From Quercus robur (Eukaryota; Streptophyta; Magnoliopsida; Fagales; Fagaceae), in the NCBI RefSeq assembly GCF_932294415.1, contig NC_065539.1:48026501-48090500 (forward strand): 64,000 nt of DNA. Reading direction: 5' to 3'. Under the pieces are notes generated by a model. The model did not search any database. It was not told the origin of the DNA and was given only the letters and a program-made list of their open reading frames with translations. The stretch's first letter is position 1, and every line of letters starts with the position of its first letter. This document shows, one piece after another, positions 3,944 through 63,900 of this stretch. The position numbers and the translations under genes are program-made.

Positions 3944-4973
3944 GGACAAAATTTAGCTATAAAATTAGTTGTAACCTTAGGCTACAACCTTACTCAATAT
4001 TTTTTTATTGGAGGTAAATTTTGACAGATCCATTATTGAATTACATTTTCTTTTTACATCCTCCATACTTGCAAAATTTCTAGAAAATAAAAAATTAATA
4101 GCTATGTCATCAATAAATTGTTTAAATTACAAGTTTTTGTAGTTTAAAATTATGCATAAAATATAAATTTATAGATAATGTGGGGGGTAAAAGACCCGGA
4201 GGCCCATGCGAATGTCTACATTTGGGCCAAGGGCCCAACTCGAGGAAAGACCCCTTCTTGGCCATGAGGAGAATCCTCCTCGGCATGGATATAGCCGAGG
4301 ATAAAGGAGACAACCTGCCACTGGTAGTGACACTCTATATCGTACCACGGAGCAGGAAAAGTACTATAGCAGAAAAGGATAGCGGAGAAAAGGGAGGTGT
4401 CTAGGGAAAAGGCTGTCATTATTGTGTTCATGACCTTGTGCCTGACATGGCCATACTTCCCTATCCTTACAATCACTCCCAACAACTGGAGGGAAGGGCG
4501 GATGGGACAAGCACCTACCCTAGGGACCCCATTCAGGAGGAATAAATCTACTATAAAAAGGAAGTAAAAAGAGACAGAGGGTGGGGACCCCCCAACACAC
4601 GAGAGGGACCAGAAAGGGCTCCCAGAACCGTGCTGAGGACCGATTCTCCCAGATGAACTTAGTCCATCTCATCCTAATCGAGTAAAACACCATGATAACT
4701 TTTGTTCATACACCAAATCCTAACTCTTTGGCCCACTCTCTACAAATTCATTGTACCAGGCTCGTTGGTCTAAGGTCCCACGCATCTTGGGCTGGACCAG
4801 AAAAATTAGATCCTACAGATCATATAGTAAATAATATCCAATTGACACGTGTATTAAGGGCATAAAGAGCATGCAATTCAATAGTTAGATTTTCAAAATA
4901 TGTAGTAATATTTATTTTATTGAGTAATGTTGTAGTTTTAGGTAACAATCAATTTTGTAATTAAATTTTGTCC
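3944..4973. mobile_element. Mutator-type non-autonomous element with 9-bp target duplication, interrupted by a solo LTR
   Basis: The ends are long imperfect inverted repeats of about 60 bp, starting GGACAAAATTTA on both ends and including the tail ACAACMTTACTCAATA. The flanks are a perfect 9-bp duplication, TATTTTAAA (3935-3943 and 4974-4982). Copy B of the surrounding block has the empty site (catttattttaaaacatc), which confirms both boundaries. Without the internal LTR the element is about 386 bp and has no coding capacity. A 9-bp duplication with long terminal inverted repeats is typical of Mutator-like elements. Confidence 0.88.
4179..4817 (+). mobile_element. Solo LTR (639 bp) nested in the Mutator-type element
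   Basis: The element begins TGTGGGGGGTAAAAGACC and ends GATCCTACA, the TG..CA form of LTRs. It is far richer in GC than its surroundings. The flanks are gataa and gatca, a 5-bp duplication with one mismatch. A TATA-like motif (ctataaaaaggaag, about 4551) followed by a GA-rich leader would be the LTR promoter. There is no internal retrotransposon region, so this looks like the product of LTR-LTR recombination. Short ORFs here are not genes. Confidence 0.72.
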
Positions 4974-48229: not shown

Positions 48230-48343
48230 TACTAGTCTATCCACATTTAACAAGTGAAATAGGTAATATGTATGAACAATGTACACTAACAAGTGCACGC
48301 TAATAATTGCCTAGAGAATTTAGCTAAAAATTACAAGATTTTT

Positions 48344-48392
48344 ACTAAGGAGAATGTTAACAAGCACCGGAGGGTGCTTGTTAAGGTTCTCC
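48344..48392. repeat. Near-perfect 23-bp hairpin
   Basis: The arm taaggagaatgttaacaagc plus acc, a 3-base loop region (gga), and the inverse arm gggtgcttgttaaggttctc plus ctta pair with about two mismatches. A sequence with partly similar words (gttaac..gcaccg in inverse) is at about 54920-54955. Confidence 0.7.
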
Positions 48393-48816
48393 TTAGTGGG
48401 TCCCACATAAATAAAAAATTGAGTAAATTAGAGAAAAAGCATGACATGACTTGTAAGGAAAAATTGGACAAATTTGCCCTCTTAATATGGGACATAACTG
48501 GCATTGGCTGAGGGCTCTTTTTTCTTTGGACAAAATTGCCCTCTTAACACATTTCCCTCCATTTTACTTTTTATTTCCCACCAAATCTTATTTTACCAAT
48601 ATTTTACCATCCACTTTCTTTCACTTTACCAATATCAATTTCTTCCCCTTTACCAAATATCAAAGAGAAGAAAAGATGAAGAAATGTCAATAAAGGATTG
48701 AGGAATAATTAAACAAGGTATCACTATTGTATTTTAGTTTATTCATAGTTATTTTTAAAAAATAGGTTAAAATTAATATGTTGTTAATTTTTGTTTTTGA
48801 TACATGTATATTGTAG

Positions 48817-50229
48817 CACTAATGGACGGGGATGTAGTTGCAAAAGATTGCTTTAACTTAAATGAACCACTTCATGAAGGTATTGTAATTTTATTTTAGT
48901 TGTGATTTACATTTCATTTATCATAGAATATTTTTAAACTCTTGTTTTTATATAGCACCAAAATTAATATGATGTTAATTTTTATTTCTAATACATGTAT
49001 TATAGCATCTATGGATGGGAATGTAGTTGCAAGTGAGAGTCACTACTTTACTCCAAAATATTGTTTTAACTTAAATGAACCCCTTTAAGAAGGTATTATA
49101 ATTTTATTTTATTTATACATTTACATTTCATTTATCATAGAATATGATATTTATATTTTAAACTCTTGTTTTAATATAGCACCAATGGATGACAATATAG
49201 ATGCAAGTGAGGCTCATCAATTTGTTCCAATGGATTGTTTTGACTTAAATGAATTGTCTCAAGAAGGTATTATTATTTTCATTTTATTTGTAATATAATT
49301 TGTAAGGACGCAATTTAACTCCCCAGCCCAAAAGATGTATGGACTTAGGTCCAAAAAGCCCTAAAACAATGAATTTATAGAGAGTGAGTTGGAAATTTAG
49401 GCTCTAATGAGTTGGATAGTTATTATGGTAGATTCAAATGACAATAAAATAAGAACAGGCAGGTTATATTTAAAGAAAATCGCCCTCGGCACGATCCGAG
49501 GAGATTAGTTCTTGTATATCTTCCGGATTAGGTTACAAGTCCGGTCCTTGTTGTTGCAGTCCTTTCTTTCTCCATTTTTTGGATCCACAACTATCAGGGT
49601 CTATCTTCTATTTTATACTATCCTTTCCCACTTATTCCCACCTTCCACGTGTAGATTTAGATTAATAGTTCTGATACTTGTCCCATCAGCCCTTCCCTAA
49701 AGTCTTTGGGAGTAACTGTAAGGCTGAAAAGCACGGTTCAGTCAGCTGCAGAGCATTCAATGCCATGGTAGCAGCTTTATCTTATATATTTTATAGTTTT
49801 CCTTTGTCCTGTTCCTTCTTAATACTTATCTTCTTCCATGGAATGGTCCAAAATGTTGCTCTTTATGGCAGGCCATGCCCTCTGTCCTTGGCATTGCCTA
49901 GCCGAGGAGGGATTCTTCCTCGTTTTCCCCCCAGGGTGGCTCTGATCGGATTCCGTTTCTTCCCTTATTAGCACAAACTCTTCTGGAAGTGTTTACCCCT
50001 CCTCGGATTGTTTAACATTCTCGGATTGGGCCCCTAGCCCAATATATACATAGATATAGGCTCCCTGGCCTTTCACCCCTACATAATTCATATATCACAT
50101 AATATGATGTTGATTGTTTTTTTAATTTTTGTTTTAATATAGCACAAGTTGATGATGATTTGATTGCAAGTGAGGTTCATAGAAGTGTTTCAAAGAATTG
50201 TGTTGAATTAAATGAGCTTCCAAATGATG
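48817..50229 (+). repeat. Tandem array of four copies of a symmetric phase-1 exon with its intron
   Basis: Exon copies: 48817-48879 (63 nt), 49006-49092 (87 nt), 49180-49266 (87 nt), and 50143-50229 (87 nt, continuous with the downstream FAR1 exon). The first three are each bounded by AG and GT. Each encodes a variant of PMDxxxxASEAHxxVPxxCF followed by xLNELxxEG. All are 3n long and phase 1-1, so any number can be spliced in without changing frame. Copy 1 lacks 24 nt (in frame). Copy 2 has CTT TAA, an in-frame stop. Introns share gtattgtaattttatttta-type starts and tgttttaatatag-type ends. Spacing is 189 and 174 bp, then 963 bp, which becomes 175 when the LTR and its 5-bp duplication are subtracted. 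Confidence 0.85.
49301..50083 (+). mobile_element. Solo LTR (783 bp) with perfect 5-bp target duplication
   Basis: It begins TGTAAGGACGCAATTT and ends TTTCACCCCTACA (TG..CA). It is flanked by TAATT on both sides (49296-49300 and 50084-50088). It is GC-richer than its surroundings and contains ccgagg/cctcgg repeats. It lies in the intron between exon copies 3 and 4 of the FAR1-like locus. No internal region remains. The 62- and 97-codon ORFs inside it are not genes. Confidence 0.9.
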
Positions 50230-52480
50230 GAAAAATTAATAATACTTATGGAAATGAAATTATTGAAGAACATGAAGATATAAATTTAATAGAAAATAAG
50301 TTTGAGCCTTTTGTTGGTCAATGTTTTCCTAGTGAAGAAGAAACTTTCGTTTTCTATAAAAATTATGCAAATCGATATGGTTTTACAATTCAAAAAGGTT
50401 GTACTGAGAAAAAAAAAAGAGAAATAGTAAGATGTGATTTCTTTTGTCATCGACAATGTAAACAACCACTAAAAATAGTGGATCCATCTAAGGAGCAACG
50501 AAATAGGAAGTCTTTAAAACGTGGATGTAATGCTCATTTAAGTATCATTTTGAGAAAGTCATTTGATATTTTTCCTCGAGAATGGCATGTCACTAAGTTT
50601 GTTGTAGACCACAATCAGGATTTGTTCTCCCTTTTGGAAGTGTGATTTCTTCCAGCCAATTGAGTTATCACTATAGATGATGAAAAACGCATTTTCTTAT
50701 TGAAAGAAGTTGGACTTTCAATTAGAGAGGTAATGCGTGTTATGGAACTTGAGAGGCATTTGAAACATGGACAACTTCCATTTTTCAAAGGGATATTCGT
50801 AATCTTTATGTGAAAATGAGGAGGAAGAATGCAAAGAATGATGCCATAAATCTTCTACAATTTTGCAAAGTTGCTAAAGAAGAGAACTCTAGATTCCAAT
50901 ATGCATTTACAACCGATGAAGAAAATAGATTGGAGCATATTTTTTGGTCACCTACTTATTGTTTTGATTGGTACCAAAAATATGGAGATGTGGTTGTTTT
51001 TTATACTACTTATAAGGTGAATGCTTATGATATGCCTTTCAGTATTTTTGTTGGTGTCAATAATCATGGAAAGACAATTCTCTTTGGTTGTGCACTTCTT
51101 CAAAATGAAACAACAAGTGTCTTTCGATGGTTAATGGAGGTACATTCTTTATCTTATAAATTTGTACAATTATTTTTTAAATTTTATTTGATTAATTAGT
51201 AGAATAATTACGTATATCCTTTGAAATATCTTCATGTTTTAGTAAATTCGTATTTGATTAGCAGACTTTTGCATGCTTAATGAGGAATCAACCCAAGGCA
51301 ATTTTGACGGACCAAGATCCATGGATTACAAAGGCAATATCAAAAGAATTGCCGGCTACAAAGCATGCGTATTGTACATGGCATATTACCGCTAAATTTA
51401 GCGGTTGGTTTACATCAATTCTTTGTAATTAATATTCAAATTGGTGCGTGGACTTCTATAAGTTATACAAGTTAAAGTCATGTGAAGATTTTGACAATCA
51501 ATGACTTTAAATTATGATAAAATAGGACATGCTCTCTACCAAACATGTAATTGGTTTATATCAAATCAAGCACTTTTGGGTACCATGTTACATTCGTGGG
51601 CAGTTTTTTGGTGGAATGACAACAACTGGAAGATTGGAAAGTATAAATGCATTTATTAAACGGTTTGTTAGTTCTCAAATAAACTTGATTCAACTCATCA
51701 AACAAGTAACTCATTATTTACCATTGATTTCTTTTGTTGTATATATATTTTTTGTTAATATTTGTAGTCTTCATGTGTCATACAAAAGTTTTTAATTTAT
51801 TTTACTATTTGTAATTTTAGGTTGATCTTCCCATTGACGATATTGAGCAAACACAATCACATGATACGATGTTGGAGACATATAGAGGTTCTTCTTAAAG
51901 ATGAATGTCATCGTTAGAAGACCAAGCACATAGTGTTTTGACACCATATGCTTTTAAGATTTTTCAAGAGGAATTTGGGAGAGCAACACAATATTCAGTG
52001 ATTCAAGAAAATGGTATTGGATTTGTGCTACAATATTATAAAGATGAAACTAGTCAAAGGCACAAAGTATTATGGGATGGTAAGATGATATATTGTAGTT
52101 GCAAAAATTTTGAATTTTGGGGTATACTTTGTCGTCATATACTTAGTGTATTCCTTCATAAAGATTGTTACCAAATTTCATCCTTGTATTTACCACCACG
52201 TTGGTGTCGTGAAGCATCATTAAGTGAAAATGAATTGCTAGTGGTGGATGATGAAAATTTAGTGGACAAGGAAAATATGGTTGATGCTAATGTTAATGAT
52301 ATGATTGATGGAGATTGCTTCATTAATTGTCCTCCGCTTTCAAAGACAAAAGGTCGTCCGAAGCAAAAACAAATGAAAGGTGGAAGATAATTAGGAAAGA
52401 AAAAGAAGTCTTGTGGCCTTTGCAAGCATTTTGGCCATAACATCTCAACATGTCCGGAGAAAGATAATTGTACTTCCTCA
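50143..52480 (+). pseudogene. FAR1/FHY3-related MULE transposase-like gene, inactivated
   Basis: Conceptual order: an acidic N-terminus; a FAR1 DNA-binding domain (VGQCFPSEEETFVFYKNYAN, zinc ligands in CDFFCHRQC, H of VVDHNQD); a MULE transposase domain (YGDVVVFYTTYKVNAYDMPF, HGKTILFGCALLQNETTS, LTDQDPWITKAISKELPATK, YCTWHI, FFGGMTTTGRLESINAFIKR); a SWIM finger (CSCKNFEFWGILCRHILSVF); and a basic tail with a CCHC knuckle (CGLCKHFGHNISTC). Two introns fit: 51139-51264 and 51706-51820. Lesions: TGA at 50643 and at 50664 where Arg codons (CGA) are expected, a one-base deletion near 50792, TAA near 51429, several stops at 51500-51520, TAA/TGA at 51896-51903, and a stop at 52388 before the knuckle. 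The DDE-type Asp in TTYK is Y-T-T-Y here rather than the usual DTTY. It is a dead relative of FAR1-related genes or Mutator-like transposons. Confidence 0.87.
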
Positions 52481-53449
52481 AATGGTGCCAAAAAAAGAAA
52501 AAAAATGTACTTCAAGTGAAATTGGATTGAATCCAATATTTTCTTTGAAATGTTAGGCACAAACTCTTGAACTTGTAAAAGAAAAAATTATGACAATATT
52601 GTGTTTGTTAATTTTGACAATATTGTGTCATTGGACAATATTAATTTTGACAATACAATGCCATTGTTAATTTTGACACTTCTCTTTTTTTTCTTTTTTT
52701 TTTCTTTTTTTGGTTTTACATTTCCATTTTGACAATATTATGCCAGTTAATATTCACTTTATCATTTTCAATATTATGTCATTTTACTAAAACACTTCTT
52801 TCTACCTCTTTTTTTTTTTTTTTTTTAATGAATTTACTTAAATTTTTATAAGGGATTCAATAAATACTAATTTAAATTAAATATTCTTGAAGAAATTTAA
52901 ATCATGCTTAAATTGCCCATTTATAAGGGATTCAAACCTAAACTCTAATCCATGCTGATATTACATTGTTAGTCCCTAATATTTATCTACCAGTGCTTTA
53001 GTCCCTAAAGTATCAAGTGAATTTTATTGGTCTTTAAAGTATCAACTTTGACAATTTAATGTATTTGTTATTGTTTTAACTTTCTTTTTTGGTGTACCCA
53101 TAGCATAAACAATTCAATCAAAATTAATATTTTTCTTCAGGTTAAGGAGTATTTTCAATTCTACCCACCATAGTCAGGTTGAAAAAAGATCTAACCCAAC
53201 CTAGCCCACCTAGATCAGGTTCGAATTTAAAAAAAAAAAAAAAAAAAAATTGATTGAGCATTCAAACAATACCAATACAAACAACACCAATACAAATAAG
53301 AGAAAATTTATAATCTAATAAGCCTGAGCCTACTACCAAACTAACATAAACTATTTTATTAGTGCTTCAAGGTTAGTAGGATATCATACAGTTCTATCCT
53401 AACTCAGTTGGTAAACAAAAGAATAAATAATAAAATTACATGATATTTT
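52481..53449. other. Gene-free region downstream of the FAR1-like locus
   Basis: The words ttttgacaatattgtg and attttgacaatacaatg recur in a loose array at 52590-52760. Then T-run (52809-52826) and A-run (53229-53249). No gene seen. Confidence 0.6.
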
Positions 53450-53595
53450 TTAAAAATATATATTAAATATAGGTGGATAGGGTTAGGCAAATTTACTGAC
53501 TCACCAACCTCTAAAAACTAACCCAAACCGATAGGTTAGGTTGAATTAGTTCGGTTTTGGCAGATTGACGACTTGGTTGACACCCCCAGCCTCTT
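53450..53595. repeat. GGGT/ACCC-type dispersed repeat, copy 2
   Basis: It shares with 1840-2056 the order tatattaaata, ggtggatagggt, aaaactaaccca and ggttttggcagattga. It is more diverged. A further part with aacccaacctagcccacc lies just upstream, at 53190. Confidence 0.45.
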
Positions 53596-54499
53596 ATAGT
53601 AGAATAAATAAAGGGTAAAGAGTTGAAAAAGAAAATTTAAAATTTGAGTTTCCTTTAATGCGGTTGTGAATTTATGTTCTCTTATCCTTCCTTATTTGTT
53701 TGGTTACAAATCTTCGTTTTCTTTTTTTGTGTTTTAATTTCTTAATTGATCTTCCTATATTTTTTTCATTAATGGTAGATAAAAAAATATTAATGTCACT
53801 AGTAGATCCAGATAAGAACTAATAACAATTTATTGCGTAGACTTTATTATGAAATAGTTAAGAAAATATTGTGTAAGTAGCACAAAAACCACAAAAACTT
53901 TTATTTTATTATGCATAAATTTTTTTTTAGGAAATAAAGTGCATATATTATGCATAATTTTAAACCACAAAAACTTAGAATTTAAAACATTTATTGATGA
54001 TATAACTATTGACAATAAAATGTGACAATATTTTCATAATACTTTTTGTTTTTAGTTGTGGTCAATCCTAATCTAATATTTTATTATATTATTTTCACAT
54101 ATGAAAGATTTGACAAATCAACTATTGTGAAAATTTTATGATAATATGTTGTTTTGTAATACAATTTGTAATTTTTATTTTGTAAAATTCCTTTCATGAT
54201 AGACACGTATCCCATCAAGCCACCTTTTACTTTAATTTATTTATTTTTACTTCTCCTTTTTTTCTCAACCACATGTTTTGTTTCACCCTTACACTTATTA
54301 CCCATCCTTTCTGCTTCTCCTTTCTCATCTTTTAAAATTTTCTCCCATATGAAACTCTTGGCTCAACTTCTTTGTCTTCTATGTTTTTTTTTCACAGCTT
54401 TCTTTTCTAACTTAGTTCGTCTCCTCCTTGATTTCCCCTCCATCAACCCAGTTCGTCTCCCTCAAAAAAATTTTATGTTCTCCCATATGTTCTTATGGG

Positions 54500-54760
54500 T
54501 TTTTTTTTTGGATGTACTGATGTTGGTTGTTTTTCTGTGAGATGGTTTTTTTTTTTTTTTTTTTGGGATGTATTGATGTTAAATGTTTCTTGTGAGATGA
54601 GTTTTTTTTTTTTTGAATCTACTGATGCTGGTTGTTTCCTGGGGATTGTGATTTTAGTTTTTTTTATTATATTTTTTTATGTTGGTTGTTTCCTATGAGA
54701 GGATTGTGATTTCAGTTTTTTCTTTTCTGTAAAGATGTTTGGTGTTGTTTTCCTGTGAAA
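54500..54760 (+). repeat. Degenerate tandem repeat with T-runs
   Basis: About four units of 50-57 bp, each a T-run followed by (g)gatgtactgatgttggttg and tttcctgtgagatgg-type sequence. Low-complexity reading frames here (114 and 67 codons) are rich in Phe/Leu and are not genes. Confidence 0.65.
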
Positions 54761-55800
54761 GACGCATGAGTGCTTGACTAGGCCTGAGTTGGTGAGAGAC
54801 GTGAAAAGGGTATTTTGGTCTCTTTATTCAATTTTTTTTCTTTTCCTATAGAGCTGACCCACATTTGATAAAAAAAAAAAACACATAAAAGCTGTGTAAA
54901 AGACTGCCAAAAAAAAAAAAAAGCTGGGTTACGGTGCCCCGTTAACACAACCTTTTTACTAATGCATGACTTTAAAGTATTTATTAATAAGTTATTTTAA
55001 AAAAATTATGAAAAAAAAGTGACAAATTTTTTTTTTGCCAAATTTTTTAATTTTTTATGAAAAGTTTTATAAAATTGATGATTAATACCTAAATTACAAA
55101 ACCAGATGAATGGTCATTATATGAAAAAGTTACTCGCTCCAATTGACAAATCGGGAAAAAGTGGCGTAAAAATCTATATATGAGAAGCTCTGTGCCACTG
55201 ACTACTCGACATGCATGTTAATTTGGTCGGAGACATAACTCAGTGTACGTATAAAAAAACACACACACAGCGACTCCCTCATTGGATAAAAGATGCTGAC
55301 GGTGGAAAGAGACATAGCAGTTCGCCAAATACAACCACCATTAAATTTGACTTTCATTACCTAACATGTGAGTTGTATGCAACTGATTCCTCCTTTGATG
55401 ATGAGACAACTCACTTGTGTGTCTCACATGCACTCGAAATGGAAATACTTTTTTCCCATATGGTTGTGGATCAAAGCCATGTGACATGCACATTATAGCA
55501 TGAAATCAACTATGTAGCTTCTCCTTTTGGTGCCAATTAGTGGGAGTTTTCGATCCAAAGAAAAAGAAAATAGCAACTTGGAGCAGGAAATTTAAAATTG
55601 ACACTAGTACAATAAAACTAGTCTCTTAATACAACTCATTTCTACTCAAAAATCAATCATCACAATAGCTTACAGTCACAATATTGAACGAGACAATAAC
55701 TACATACATTGTATCATATGCTGTAAAGAATGAAAGATTAGCATCAACAAGGAGTGGGAAGCTACAACAATTATGGATTTCATGTAGCCCTTAAGTTACT
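54761..55800. other. Gene-free region
   Basis: AT-rich with A-runs. Includes a ggttacggtgccccgttaac segment near 54925. The 95-codon ORF at 55211 shows no family features. No gene called. Confidence 0.55.
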
Positions 55801-57907: not shown

Positions 57908-60900
57908 TCAAACGCACCGAGGTAGCCGCTGCAGTTCCAATGCCACATTCAAAGCAGCATTGGCTAAAGCAGGTACACCTGAACTTTTAAGTTCAGATAC
58001 AATAGCTTCAACCCTTGAAATCTCATGTACAGAAATTGATAATATCATTGCTTGTGAGAGATATTGCCTACAAGAATAACCAAGAGCATGCAACACCCGC
58101 AGCACAAGCAAGCGAGAGGTGGCCCTGCTTGAAGACTCGAGAATTGCACTAACCTTAGGGAGATTAGTCAGAAGACCAGTGGTGGCTTCCCTTGGAGCTG
58201 CCTTAAGCAACAATACCACACATTCAGAGGCTATATCTGCAACATTTGCTTCATGGGACTCGCTTAACTCCAGCAGTACACCTACATTGCTACCAAAGTC
58301 CATAATGTCTCTTATGCTTTGCTGCTGATCGACTACACTGTTTGCCTCCGCAGAACCATCACTTAAGAGATTTGGTTCTTTTGTGTAGATGAAACCTTTT
58401 CTGCTGCTGATTGATCGTAGAAGGAAAGCCCTACACAGGCCAAGAGTTGGTTCAAGAAAATCCTCCATATCCTTTGCATAAACAAATTCCAAGAGGTTTC
58501 CAATCCTCCTGACTACTTTTAGTTGGGAGAGTAATTTGGATTCCATTTCAGGAGCAGATGCCAGAGCCAGACACAGCTTGACATTGTTTACATTTGCACT
58601 GGAGAGATCACCGAGCAAAAACTCAAAGCATTGCGAAACTATCTTCAGATGTAGAATGTTTGAAATTCTAATGTAGTTAAACTCAATGAACATCACAAGA
58701 AGCTTTTGTGCATACATTGGAATGGGATCTTCATCTTCAATCAAAGCAGGGTAGAGAGGGAGGAAATGTGTATTAGCTATGAACTTCAAATCTTCTGATC
58801 TTTGCTCATCATTAAATGGTTCGTCAAAAAAAATGACCATTACATCAAACAAAATTTTCAGGCACAAAAATCTGGCATCACCATCCTTGTTTCCCTTATA
58901 CAGAACAGCTAAGCTGGGGAGAATTTCACAAATGAAAATGAAAGGGTTTTCAAGAATTACAGGGGACTCTTCTGTCACAGATTCAAGAACTCGAAGAAGG
59001 GTTATTTGGAAGTCATCCCTGCCCTGGAAATCAAATAATAAAGGCAAATTGCATATTAGATCAACGTCAAATCATTATTTTTTGGTCAAGGTTAGAAGTT
59101 CACCATATAGCCAAGATAATTGTGTCAATCTCATCCTACAAATCATTTCCGATTGCCATGAGCTTTTTCATTTAGTTTTTAACTTATTTTGTTTATATAT
59201 AGCTTCTTAAAACCTCACATTTTCGAATATAAGTATACTTTAACCCATTTTCAGCAAAAGCCAAAGAAGCTGATGCCAAACGAATACTAGTTAAAGATAT
59301 CTACCTAAGGACCATTTCATGTTTTTTTAGTGATTAATTTAGCAAAAAGTGGTTCACTAAACATGGCAGACTTGTGCAGTCAGTTTACCAATCACATCCA
59401 CCACTACTTCATCTTACCAAGACAGTATTCAAGCCCCTGGCAAGTTGCACATTTTCCAAGTTTTCAGACATTGACTGTTGAAAGAGCTAGCCAACTATAC
59501 AGATTTTAGCATCAGTACTCCTTGAAACTTTAACAGAAATGCAACTCAACTCAGATGAGAAATGAGGCTATCTTGTCAAATGCAGAAACTATATATAATT
59601 AAAATTGGAAAATGGCTCAGCTGCAGCCACCTACCTGAAATGGGGTCTCAACAAGTTTGATTAAATTTGCCAACTGCTGCAGGACATGATGGCTGACTAC
59701 CTTGCGCTTAAAAGATGAGCTCCCAAGTAGATGAAGAACAACAGGAAACATATGAATATTAGTCTTTGGAGCAGTTCGACTGCTGAGAGCAGAGATATGC
59801 CCATGGCGCCTTCCTGCCATTATTTGCTGAATATCTCCAGTTATGGTATCCAATAAACCTGGTATGGTGGATGCCACAACATTCACAAATGCATCTAAAC
59901 ACTGCTTCACAAAGTTGTCCTTCTCTTTTGCTAGCCTGTCCACAGCAGAAAGCAACCTAGCATTGCACAAAAAGTGTGGCAGCCATCTCCTACCATTCTT
60001 GCAAAGGAGAGCCACAAATACAAGTGCCTTTCCCTTCAAAACTTCACTACCCTGCTCAATGAGAGACAAAAGGCTCGGGACAAGGTTCTTATCCTCCGCC
60101 AAAGGTAGAAGATACCGACCAATGCTAGTGAACATATGGCTTCCAAGCATGGCCATGTTTAAAAGGTTCAAGCTAATTTGCTGCTCACGTGGACTGCCCT
60201 TGACAAGGGCAGATGCAATTTCCTTGAAGGAAAGTTTCTCTATAACTGATTGAATGCTAGAAGGATTGAAACGAACCAAGCGGACCAAACATGATCCTGC
60301 TGTGAGTCTCATGCTCTCCTGTTTCCCTGAAGCCCTATATATATAGCTCACATTACTAATCACATCCTGACTGGTGAAACGAGCTCCCCAATGCCCTCCT
60401 TGACTGCAGATATTCTCAATTGTCCTCAATGCATAAAGTTGAGTCATATCATCCTCACCTTTTCGTAATATTGATGACACTAATGAAATCAATGAATTTG
60501 AAACCTGCCCCAAGGAATGTGAGTTATCTATAAAGAAAATGATGTAGAAGAACATGAAGATTGCACAAAGGACTCAACACCATCTCTATAAAGTAAAAGT
60601 TATCTTAGTATATCATTCATGAGACTTCAAGCGATAGGTAGATATGTTACAATTTTTTTTACTTAAAGAATTGAAGAGTCAAATTTAGATTAATTAAGCA
60701 CCAAACAATTTGGCACACACACAAAGGTTATGGCAATCAAATAGGAAGCTAACCTGCCAGCCAGATGTGGATTTATAGTCCTTTGATGGAGATTCAGGTG
60801 GATTATTATCTCTAGTTTGATCATTTTGAGTTGATATATAGAATAGCAGCTCACCTAAAGCAGCCATAGAAAACCTCCTCACTTTATCCTGCTTATCCCT

Positions 60901-63900
60901 AAGGCCATCAGAAAGTGAACCTAAAATCCCAGAATTAGCCAAATCATCTTCAATAAAAGTTGAATGCCTTATCAGCAAGCCAACCAGTGATGCAAGTTGA
61001 ACACGTAAAGCAGAGACCTTGGATTGTCTGAGCATTTTAACAAGAATGAGCATTATTGGCCCATTAGTCAAGATATTAGCTGCATCAGCACTAGTGCTCA
61101 ACATCTCAAGGTATCTGATCACATTCTGCTTCTCCCCAATGCTAGTGTTCCCACTAAAAATGGATGTAATCCTACCATTCAGGGCATCCAACTGCTCTTT
61201 AGGCATCTTCACAAAATCCGATGCTTGTAAGGCCTCAAAAGGAAGTGAAGGAATCACCTCCAATAGTTTATCAGCTTTTCTGCTAGGCATTACAGGTCTG
61301 ACTGAGAGATCAGATGGATGCCAAAAAACCTGGGAAATGTTATTAGAAGATTTTGAAGAATCAGAGTCAGGGACCGATCCTGAACCATCTTTAATTCTCT
61401 GATTTTTAAGCTGAGGACTGACACTGGGAGGGGTAGCAGCCACTTCAATATGCTCTGAAGATGATTCCTGGTCCAGTGGTTTTGATTCATCTGAGGCAGG
61501 CATATTAACAGGAGTATCAAATTGATGTGTGTTATTTTCAACATCTTCTACCTTCCCCTGATGCTGATCCTGACTTGACATCTTGTCTTCGGGCGTACAA
61601 GTAATGCTATCAGATTCATCATGTGCCTCATCTTCAGTATTTTCATTAAAATCAAGTTCCATATCGGTATTCTCAATTTTGACTTCAGCATCATTTTCAG
61701 AGCCATTAGGCAACGGCCTCCTGTAGTTTTCCTTCTCGTTCTCCCTCTGTAAGTTTGTCTTTGCTATTCTTGAAAGTCTTAAAAGATTCACACCTCTAGT
61801 GGCACTAGGACGGTTTTTCTGCTTCTCCTCAACTACTCTACCAGAAGCCTTGGTCTGAGTTCTGCGGCCACTTTGTGTACCCTTGATTGGTGTCTCATAG
61901 CCTCTTGGTCCTAAAACAGAATTCTCATCCTGTTTCGGAGCCCCTTGTACATCTTTTTCACGGTACTTAGGAGGGGTCTTGTTTTGGAGAGATTTATCGC
62001 CATTACGTTCTGAAAGACATGGTCTAGCATATTGTTCTATCATGTTAGTGAAAGCAGGCTGAGGAGGTAAAGGCACTGGAGTGAATCTAGTTCTCCAAAA
62101 AGCATGTCCACAAAGCTCAGGCCATTGAATTCTTTCTGCTGGATCTTTTACTAGCAAAGAATTGATTAGATTGACAAAAGGGCGGCTTGGATTACCCGGG
62201 AGAGGTGGAACTGGATCTGAGAGGATGGATTTTACTAGTTGAGTAAATTCTCCCCCCATGAAGGGAGGCCTCCCTGCATAACACTCATATAGTACACAAC
62301 CGAGGGCCCAGAAATCAGATGCATAAGAATGGACACCCCCATCCTCAAACAGCTCAGGAGCCATGTAAAATGGTGTTCCACGTTTAGCTTGCGGCAACTA
62401 AACAAGTTCATAAGAATCAAACTACATCAGAAACTGTTTAATAATAGAAAAAAAATGGTAGATGGAGAAATTCAAAATAATTATCATCAAGTCAATTTAA
62501 ACTTTGTATACAACACCAACTATTGCAATAGTTGGTAAAAACATACCGAGGAAGAAGGAGTTTTCGATATTTCACTTAATTTTCTAGCCAACCCAAAATC
62601 ACATAGCTGCAAGGCATAATGATACAAGAATAATTATTCAAGTCGATATCATAACCACTGGCAGTAGCCTAACTATACAAGAAAAATAACATGTGAAAGC
62701 ACCTTTGTACGTCCATTTTCGTCCAATAAGATGTTTGAGGGCTTCAAATCACAATAAATAATTCCCTTGGAATGCAAATACCTGACAATAGAGATGATTT
62801 TCTCAACATAGCTCAAGAATAATACATGTACTAACTCTACCCTAAATAATAAAAAGGAAAATCAACGCTAATTTCCATACTGCAAAGCTTTGAGAAGGTC
62901 ACGTGCAATATCATGAATTGAATCTTCTGGTAGTTGACTATCCTGCATCTCAGTCACGAAAATGTTAGTAATGTGAATCATGCCATTATAAGCATGCTTC
63001 AGCTCAGATATTACATACCCATATTGCATATCCTTGTTTCTATGTTAACTGTATAAACCCAGAATAAATGAAAATTTCAAATGATAGTATGACATGGTAT
63101 TAAAAGTATGCAAATTAAAAGTATTTTGCCACAGCATTGATTATGATATTTCCCCATGCTTTACAGCCAAAGTTTAATGATATATGATCTCTGAATTAGA
63201 TTAACTCAAAGGGGATAGAGTCAAAGAAAGATGAAGAAACATTGAAGCCAGTGAAATGATGAAACAATTGCATCACTTTAAATTGGCAAGCTTCAAAAAA
63301 GCTATAATGCATTGTGCAGGAACTATTATGAGTTTCTAAGAAGAATATGTTACACATCCACACTTTCCCCTTTCCAATGTTCTAGTGATTTATAAACCAT
63401 AGAAAACACTAATCAGCTTCATTGAAGTCAATCTTATATATATATATAGAGAGAGAGAGATAATAAATTGATAACCATTATTGCCTAATTGAAAAGGAGA
63501 TAACATTACGAGGGTCATGACCCAAAAGGAGTTGATTGAAAACTAGGACACAAAAATTTGTCTTTGGTACACAAAAACCAGTGTAACAAGGACACTCATA
63601 ATTTATCGGTTAAGCTCATTAGGCAACAACACCTACATCCACAGTCCACATCCATAGTTAAATCGCATTTCTGAAGATGTTGTATTCAATAACTCATATC
63701 TGCATTTGGTTGATGCCCAAGGGTGTGTCCTTGTACATACTTCCTATATAAGCAGTTGGATTACCCACAGCATTATTGATAAAATTAAAAGACCAGAAAA
63801 CTTCCAAGTCCTTTCCTGCTCAGCCTTTCAAAAGAAATGCATTACCTGACGTAATAAGGTCATGAGATCTCCTCCGACACAGTACTCCAAAACTAACCAC

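Follow-up and report, generated by a model that had tools for sequence, protein, structure and literature searches.

The window, by which we mean the whole 64-kb stretch of DNA analysed, carries a Mutator-like element (MULE) whose gene has FAR1, MULE and SWIM domains downstream of a tandem array of short exons (Table 1). MULE target-site duplications (TSDs) are 9-11 bp long, and the window element is flanked by a perfect 10/10-bp TSD, TTTTTACTAA. A second TSD, ATAAATTTAT, flanks a related element at locus L016, and none was resolved in the other loci looked at. The two ends of the element are weakly alike over about 20 bp, as judged by eye, and the left end is itself a palindrome; blastn between the flanks found no long terminal inverted repeat. 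The transposase gene contains several stops and frame breaks, and related copies are scattered over the 785.7-Mb genome. The window element is thus a MULE, and a dead, inert copy of a multi-copy FAR1-type family. An ordinary immobile host FRS gene is ruled out by the dispersed multi-copy element and its TSD. Searches of viral and genome contig collections returned no relatives.

Table 1. Features of the element and its exon array (positions in the window)
Feature	Position	Strand	Remarks
Mutator-like element (MULE), dead, with FAR1/MULE/SWIM gene	48349..54952	+	10-bp TSD; homology borders in dispersed loci
TSD TTTTTACTAA, left copy	48339..48348		
TSD TTTTTACTAA, right copy	54953..54962		
Palindromic left terminus	48349..48392		20-nt arm, 4-nt loop, 20-nt arm
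Candidate exon 0, 3′ end (5′ UTR)	48684..48717	+	TGA at 48699 in the frame feeding c1; donor at 48718
Unit c1	48817..48879	+	63 nt; 24-nt in-frame deletion; ATG is codon 3
Composite intron	48880..49005	+	i2-type part up to 48956, relic acceptor included; CACCAA; i0-type tail
Unit c2	49006..49092	+	87 nt; ATG is codon 3; TAA is codon 28
Unit c3	49180..49266	+	87 nt; ATG is codon 3
Solo-LTR TSD TAATT, left	49296..49300		
Solo LTR (TG...CA)	49301..50083		783 bp; in c3-c4 intron, the last of the array
Solo-LTR TSD TAATT, right	50084..50088		
Unit c4	50143..50229	+	87 nt; fused to FAR1 exon; GTT replaces ATG
FAR1 DNA-binding domain (PF03101)	50352..50627	+	E 6.7e-14
MULE transposase domain fragment (PF10551)	50990..51139	+	E 1.6e-12; frame broken upstream
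SWIM zinc finger (PF04434)	52064..52162	+	E 1.2e-8

The original prediction of four homologous exons of 63, 87, 87 and 87 nt is borne out by their borders and by a profile search. AG/GT borders enclose c1, c2 and c3, whereas c4 has AG before it and continues into the FAR1 exon. A profile built from c1-c4 recovers its own members at E 2e-12 to 1e-23, as it must by construction, and the next best match has an E-value of 2.5, leaving no further comparable unit in the 64-kb window by this search. Independently of the profile, c3 agrees with c2 at 64/87 positions and with c4 at 60/87, where the mean for the window is 24 (sd 4.3). Together, these match counts and the profile E-values rule out a chance repeat. 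The in-frame loss of 24 nt from copy 1 and the stop in copy 2, both foreseen, are present in c1 and c2. The proposed phase 1-1 symmetry holds for the 87-nt exon but not in full for c1, whose left 'phase 1' is without coding significance, since the candidate exon upstream of it is interrupted by a stop in the frame concerned.

The introns of the array, previously described as near-identical, proved similar but more diverged than that, with 5/76 differences between i1a and i2 and 14/84 between i2 and i3. The c1-c2 intron (126 nt) is a composite, both parts of which beat all shuffles in their matches (0/500 as good for either). The match of i1b to i3 was equalled by 2/500 shuffles. The homology of i0 to i2 and i3 was not significant (47/500 and 75/500 shuffles as high), so that the first step of the duplication model rests on exon homology. 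The insertion point of the solo LTR is uninterrupted in at least 16 other loci in a genome search in which 40 of 2817 candidates were scored. Minus-strand fragments resembling parts of this LTR also occur at 4465-4837 of the window.

Across the same genome, 51 loci were examined, counting the window, and the unit profile gave 161 matches in them; L001-L008 (the window and matches to the LTR part) were excluded from the unit counts. Because the genome searches scored 40/2817, 40/81, 40/77 and 150/316 candidates, family sizes are lower bounds, and the genome holds more related loci than the 51 counted. The usual unit number is two in groups C and D, three in group B and four in group A. In group A (28 loci), 18 loci have four matches, six have three, two have two and two have five; in group B (12 loci), nine have three, two have four and one has one; in group C (nine loci), eight have two and one has one; and both group D loci have two. 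Five whole units occur only in L048, since an insertion splits one of the units behind the five matches of L055, and the additional matches in L036 and L047 are partial and distant and were not counted as whole units. Partial or rearranged loci are L026, L050, L052, L053 and L055-L057. L053 groups as c1-c3-c4, a loss of c2, and three group A loci with three matches (L009, L012 and L013) have lost the fused unit through internal deletion. These three (contig C5) are internal-deletion derivatives that lack the transposase body as well as c4. In three host-type FRS relatives from the same genome (1.5-1.8 kb each), no significant match to the unit was found (best E 0.036). At the DNA level, these counts support the predicted variable-length N-terminal module, with two to five units among the relatives. 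The coding-intact locus L030/L059 has two.

The length of the unit is largely constant, at 87 nt in 127/161 units and 63 nt in a further 18/161, and the neighbouring introns span 74-138 nt, eight interrupted gaps aside. Lengths that are not a multiple of three occur in 15/161 units and stops in 16/146 frame-clean units, and such broken units are expected in a set that includes dead copies. AG precedes 141/161 units, and GT follows 84 of the 110 non-last units. All 11 of the 11 group B loci that have a first unit are missing its GT donor; some units can therefore not be working exons, and the working number in this group may be two. Group C has undergone a separate tandem expansion of exon 0, its intron and ~24 nt of unit 1 with a ~183-nt period, present as one copy in L037, L042 and L043, two in L030, L033, L035, L039 and L041, and four in L044. 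This expansion, which lies at 755-1472 in L044 and at 1119-1473 in L030, adds no coding unit.

Exon 0 and the start codon indicate which exon was duplicated. In the frame feeding the first unit, exon 0 has a stop among its ten final codons in 25/25 loci of group A, 7/10 of group B and 8/8 of group C, no reading being available for three A loci, two B loci, L037, L045 and L046. This stop argues against exon 0 as coding, and its absence from 3/10 group B loci counts against our preferred explanation. In 96/146 frame-clean units, codon 3 is ATG. In the fused unit, ATG is present in 8/9 group C loci, whereas group B mostly has ATT at this position and group A mostly GTT. Because the unit carries an ATG and exon 0 looks like a 5′ UTR, the array is a repeated start exon rather than an internal cassette. 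On the simplest reading, it was the first coding exon that was duplicated, and its fused copy lost the ATG once upstream copies took over. Locus L030/L059 (C2:79360900-79365692), a group C member, can be read without a stop over four exons, which begin at the unit 1 ATG and are separated by GT-AG introns, and encodes 768 aa, with splice sites chosen by script and an alternative donor giving 776 aa. Its product has MULE (1.1e-24), FAR1 (1.4e-18) and SWIM (6.9e-7) domains in Pfam, and its two units end in DLNELPQE and DLNELPND, both of which fit the pattern DLNx(x)P.

The history of the array was read from a unit tree with UFboot support, built from 11 group A, six group B and six group C loci. 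Units group by slot across loci and not by locus: the fused slots A4, B3 and C2 form one clade (UFboot 100), A1 and A2 another (99), and eight of the nine slot types are monophyletic at 91-100, B2 being the exception. The placement of B1 with A1 and A2 has a UFboot of only 72, and the penultimate slots did not all come together in one clade in this tree. The slot clades rule out concerted evolution of the units. Since the fused slots of all three groups share one clade, the split between fused and upstream units predates the split of A, B and C, and further units were added by later duplications. The clustering by slot further implies that the array grew stepwise before the window copy died. 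The proposed tandem duplication of an 87-nt symmetric exon is thus supported. In another unit tree, which likewise groups units by slot and not by locus, the first unit of L040 (C38:29839180-29841180) stands apart from the other B first units and near group A units, from which it follows that the subfamilies may be linked by intermediates.

We consider it likely, with a probability of roughly 80%, that the window holds a dead FAR1-type MULE copy with a stepwise-duplicated start exon. The gene is laid out as a putative 5′ UTR exon, a tandem array of the duplicated first coding exon and the FAR1/MULE/SWIM body, and at the DNA level the duplicated segment consists of an intron together with the 87 nt that open the FAR1 exon, ATG included. 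Living members of the family would splice the units in series, each unit contributing one ~29-residue N-terminal repeat, and translation would start at the first included ATG. An SE plus [D]LNE core, apparently kept by selection, probably binds a host protein, for which a TOPLESS-type corepressor is the leading putative candidate.

For 22 group A, 11 group B and eight group C loci, with nine slot types represented by their commonest codons, dN/dS over codons 22-27 was 0.19 for all pairs and 0.16 for orthologous slots, against 2.0 and 1.5 for the remainder. Over the whole unit, dN/dS ranged among the sets from about 0.65 to 1.18, which means that the greater part of the unit is not conserved. 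Judged by the commonest codons, both LNE and SE are identical in 9/9 slot types. When a single real copy stands for each slot type instead, pN and pS are 0.029 and 0.386 for LNE, compared with 0.256 and 0.235 for the whole unit. Codons 22-27 have only the fourth lowest pN of 24 windows, codons 20-25 having the lowest, and 1300 of 20000 random six-codon draws were as low as codons 22-27. As the pairs are non-independent, these figures are indications and not tests; they suggest that the SE plus LNE core is the part kept across slots.

The strongest alternative, to which we give slightly less than an even chance and which is compatible with the stepwise start-exon explanation, is neutral structural drift, in which the 5′ end of the MULE is prone to duplication and symmetric extra exons are tolerated without selection for their number. 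Such drift would account for the independent exon-0 expansion in group C, the donorless first unit of group B, the loss of c2 from L053 and a unit that for the most part evolves at a dN/dS of about 1 or more. It fits less well with an LNE that is the same in every slot type and has so low a pN relative to its pS, or with a unit length that stays in frame while introns vary.

The intron could instead be the multiplied element, with the exon as a passenger. Additional 5′ introns near the start raise expression, an effect known as intron-mediated enhancement. The expansions in A/B and C share the first intron, and in the window i2 and i3 differ less (14/84) than c3 and c4 (27/87; Fisher p 0.03). 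That the introns are better conserved than the exons was, however, a hint that failed for c2/c3 over 12 group A loci, in which the mean i2/i3 difference is 0.230 and that of c2/c3 is 0.233, c3/c4 still being higher at 0.345. The conserved amino-acid core also argues against the exon as passenger, as does the absence of the intron-enhancement motifs TTNGATYTG and CGATT from a 460-nt stretch in five group C loci. We regard multiplication of the intron as unlikely. The original prediction's mechanism, unequal crossing over in an array perhaps still expanding, taken here as in-register exchange between units, agrees with the variable copy number and with the nearly identical additional c2 of L048, but is improbable given that the c1/c2 and L048 junctions, read by eye, are out of register, that of L048 being shifted within the intron, and that the slots have not been homogenised but cluster across loci. 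On this reading of the junctions, the youngest duplications arose out of register, at a few bases of microhomology, and not by exchange between aligned units.

Within the start-exon explanation, the identity of the core's partner is more speculative. EAR repression motifs follow the patterns LxLxL or DLNx(x)P (PMC9956375; DLNx(x)P also in PMC6479872), and DLNx(x)P motifs are described as lying mostly near the C terminus (PMC9956375). DLNxxP is found in the commonest C1, C2 and B2 units and in the first units of L045 and L046, and DLNxP in the commonest A1 and A2 units. In contrast to known EAR repressors, the motif here lies at the N terminus of a transposase, and the likeness is one of sequence pattern. 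DLNx(x)P occurs in 50/146 frame-clean units, window included, whereas the window cores themselves (NLNEPL, NLNEPL, DLNELS and ELNELP) fit it in 0/4 cases. Corepressor docking by the units may be suggested by this short motif. It is conceivable, though we would not expect it, that the transposon multiplied a host-corepressor docking motif, each start exon adding an EAR-type [D]LNExP and an alternative start codon. If so, array length, splicing or start choice would set the strength with which the transposase recruits a TOPLESS-type corepressor, and through this recruitment the transposase would tune either its own expression or how its targets are silenced. The EAR reading would then connect the evolution of transposons with a main corepressor pathway of plants, and would be relevant to how transposases of the FAR1 type turned into transcription factors. 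In this regard, FRS7 and FRS12 are reported to recruit the co-repressor NINJA (PMC13306707).

The element resembles known MULEs with FAR1-type transposases in its MULE, FAR1 and SWIM domains, 10-bp TSD and dispersed copies, but differs from them in a first coding exon that is a tandem array of two to five units and in a short palindromic left terminus, no long terminal inverted repeat having been found between the flanks. The FRS host transcription factors share the FAR1-MULE-SWIM order of the transposon gene, whereas here the gene is part of a multi-copy, mobile element, with the repeat on the upstream side of FAR1. In grape, one FRS is reported to carry duplicated motifs, presumably forming two FAR1 domains, and the same source names exon duplication as a general cause of family growth (PMC12112247). 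Like known tandem exon duplications (Kondrashov and Koonin 2001, as cited in PMC2674458), the array consists of adjacent homologous exons of symmetric phase with splice borders, but the duplicated exon carries the start codon and belongs to a transposase gene. A search of the PMC literature found no earlier description of such an array in FAR1-related or MULE genes, and no paper that joins FAR1-related sequences with a DLNxxP EAR motif; to judge from that search, the array is undescribed so far. Within a single genome, the duplication of an exon of a mobile gene can be followed through an ordered series of two, three, four and five units, with orthologous slots available for comparison and a coding-intact relative available for testing.

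Several smaller features of the element and its surroundings were also observed. The left terminus resembles a short palindrome (hairpin) in groups A, B and C, by eye in the latter two, and the palindromes of the window, L043 (~1000-1045) and L058 (~525-565) differ in sequence by group and are alike in form. A 58-nt stretch of the 3′ part of the MULE (53943-54000) recurs inverted at 4107-4164 with 90% identity. A RUNKEL-type kinase gene adjoins the transposon at 57908-62397 on the minus strand (ARM_RUK 8.7e-125; protein kinase 1.4e-15).
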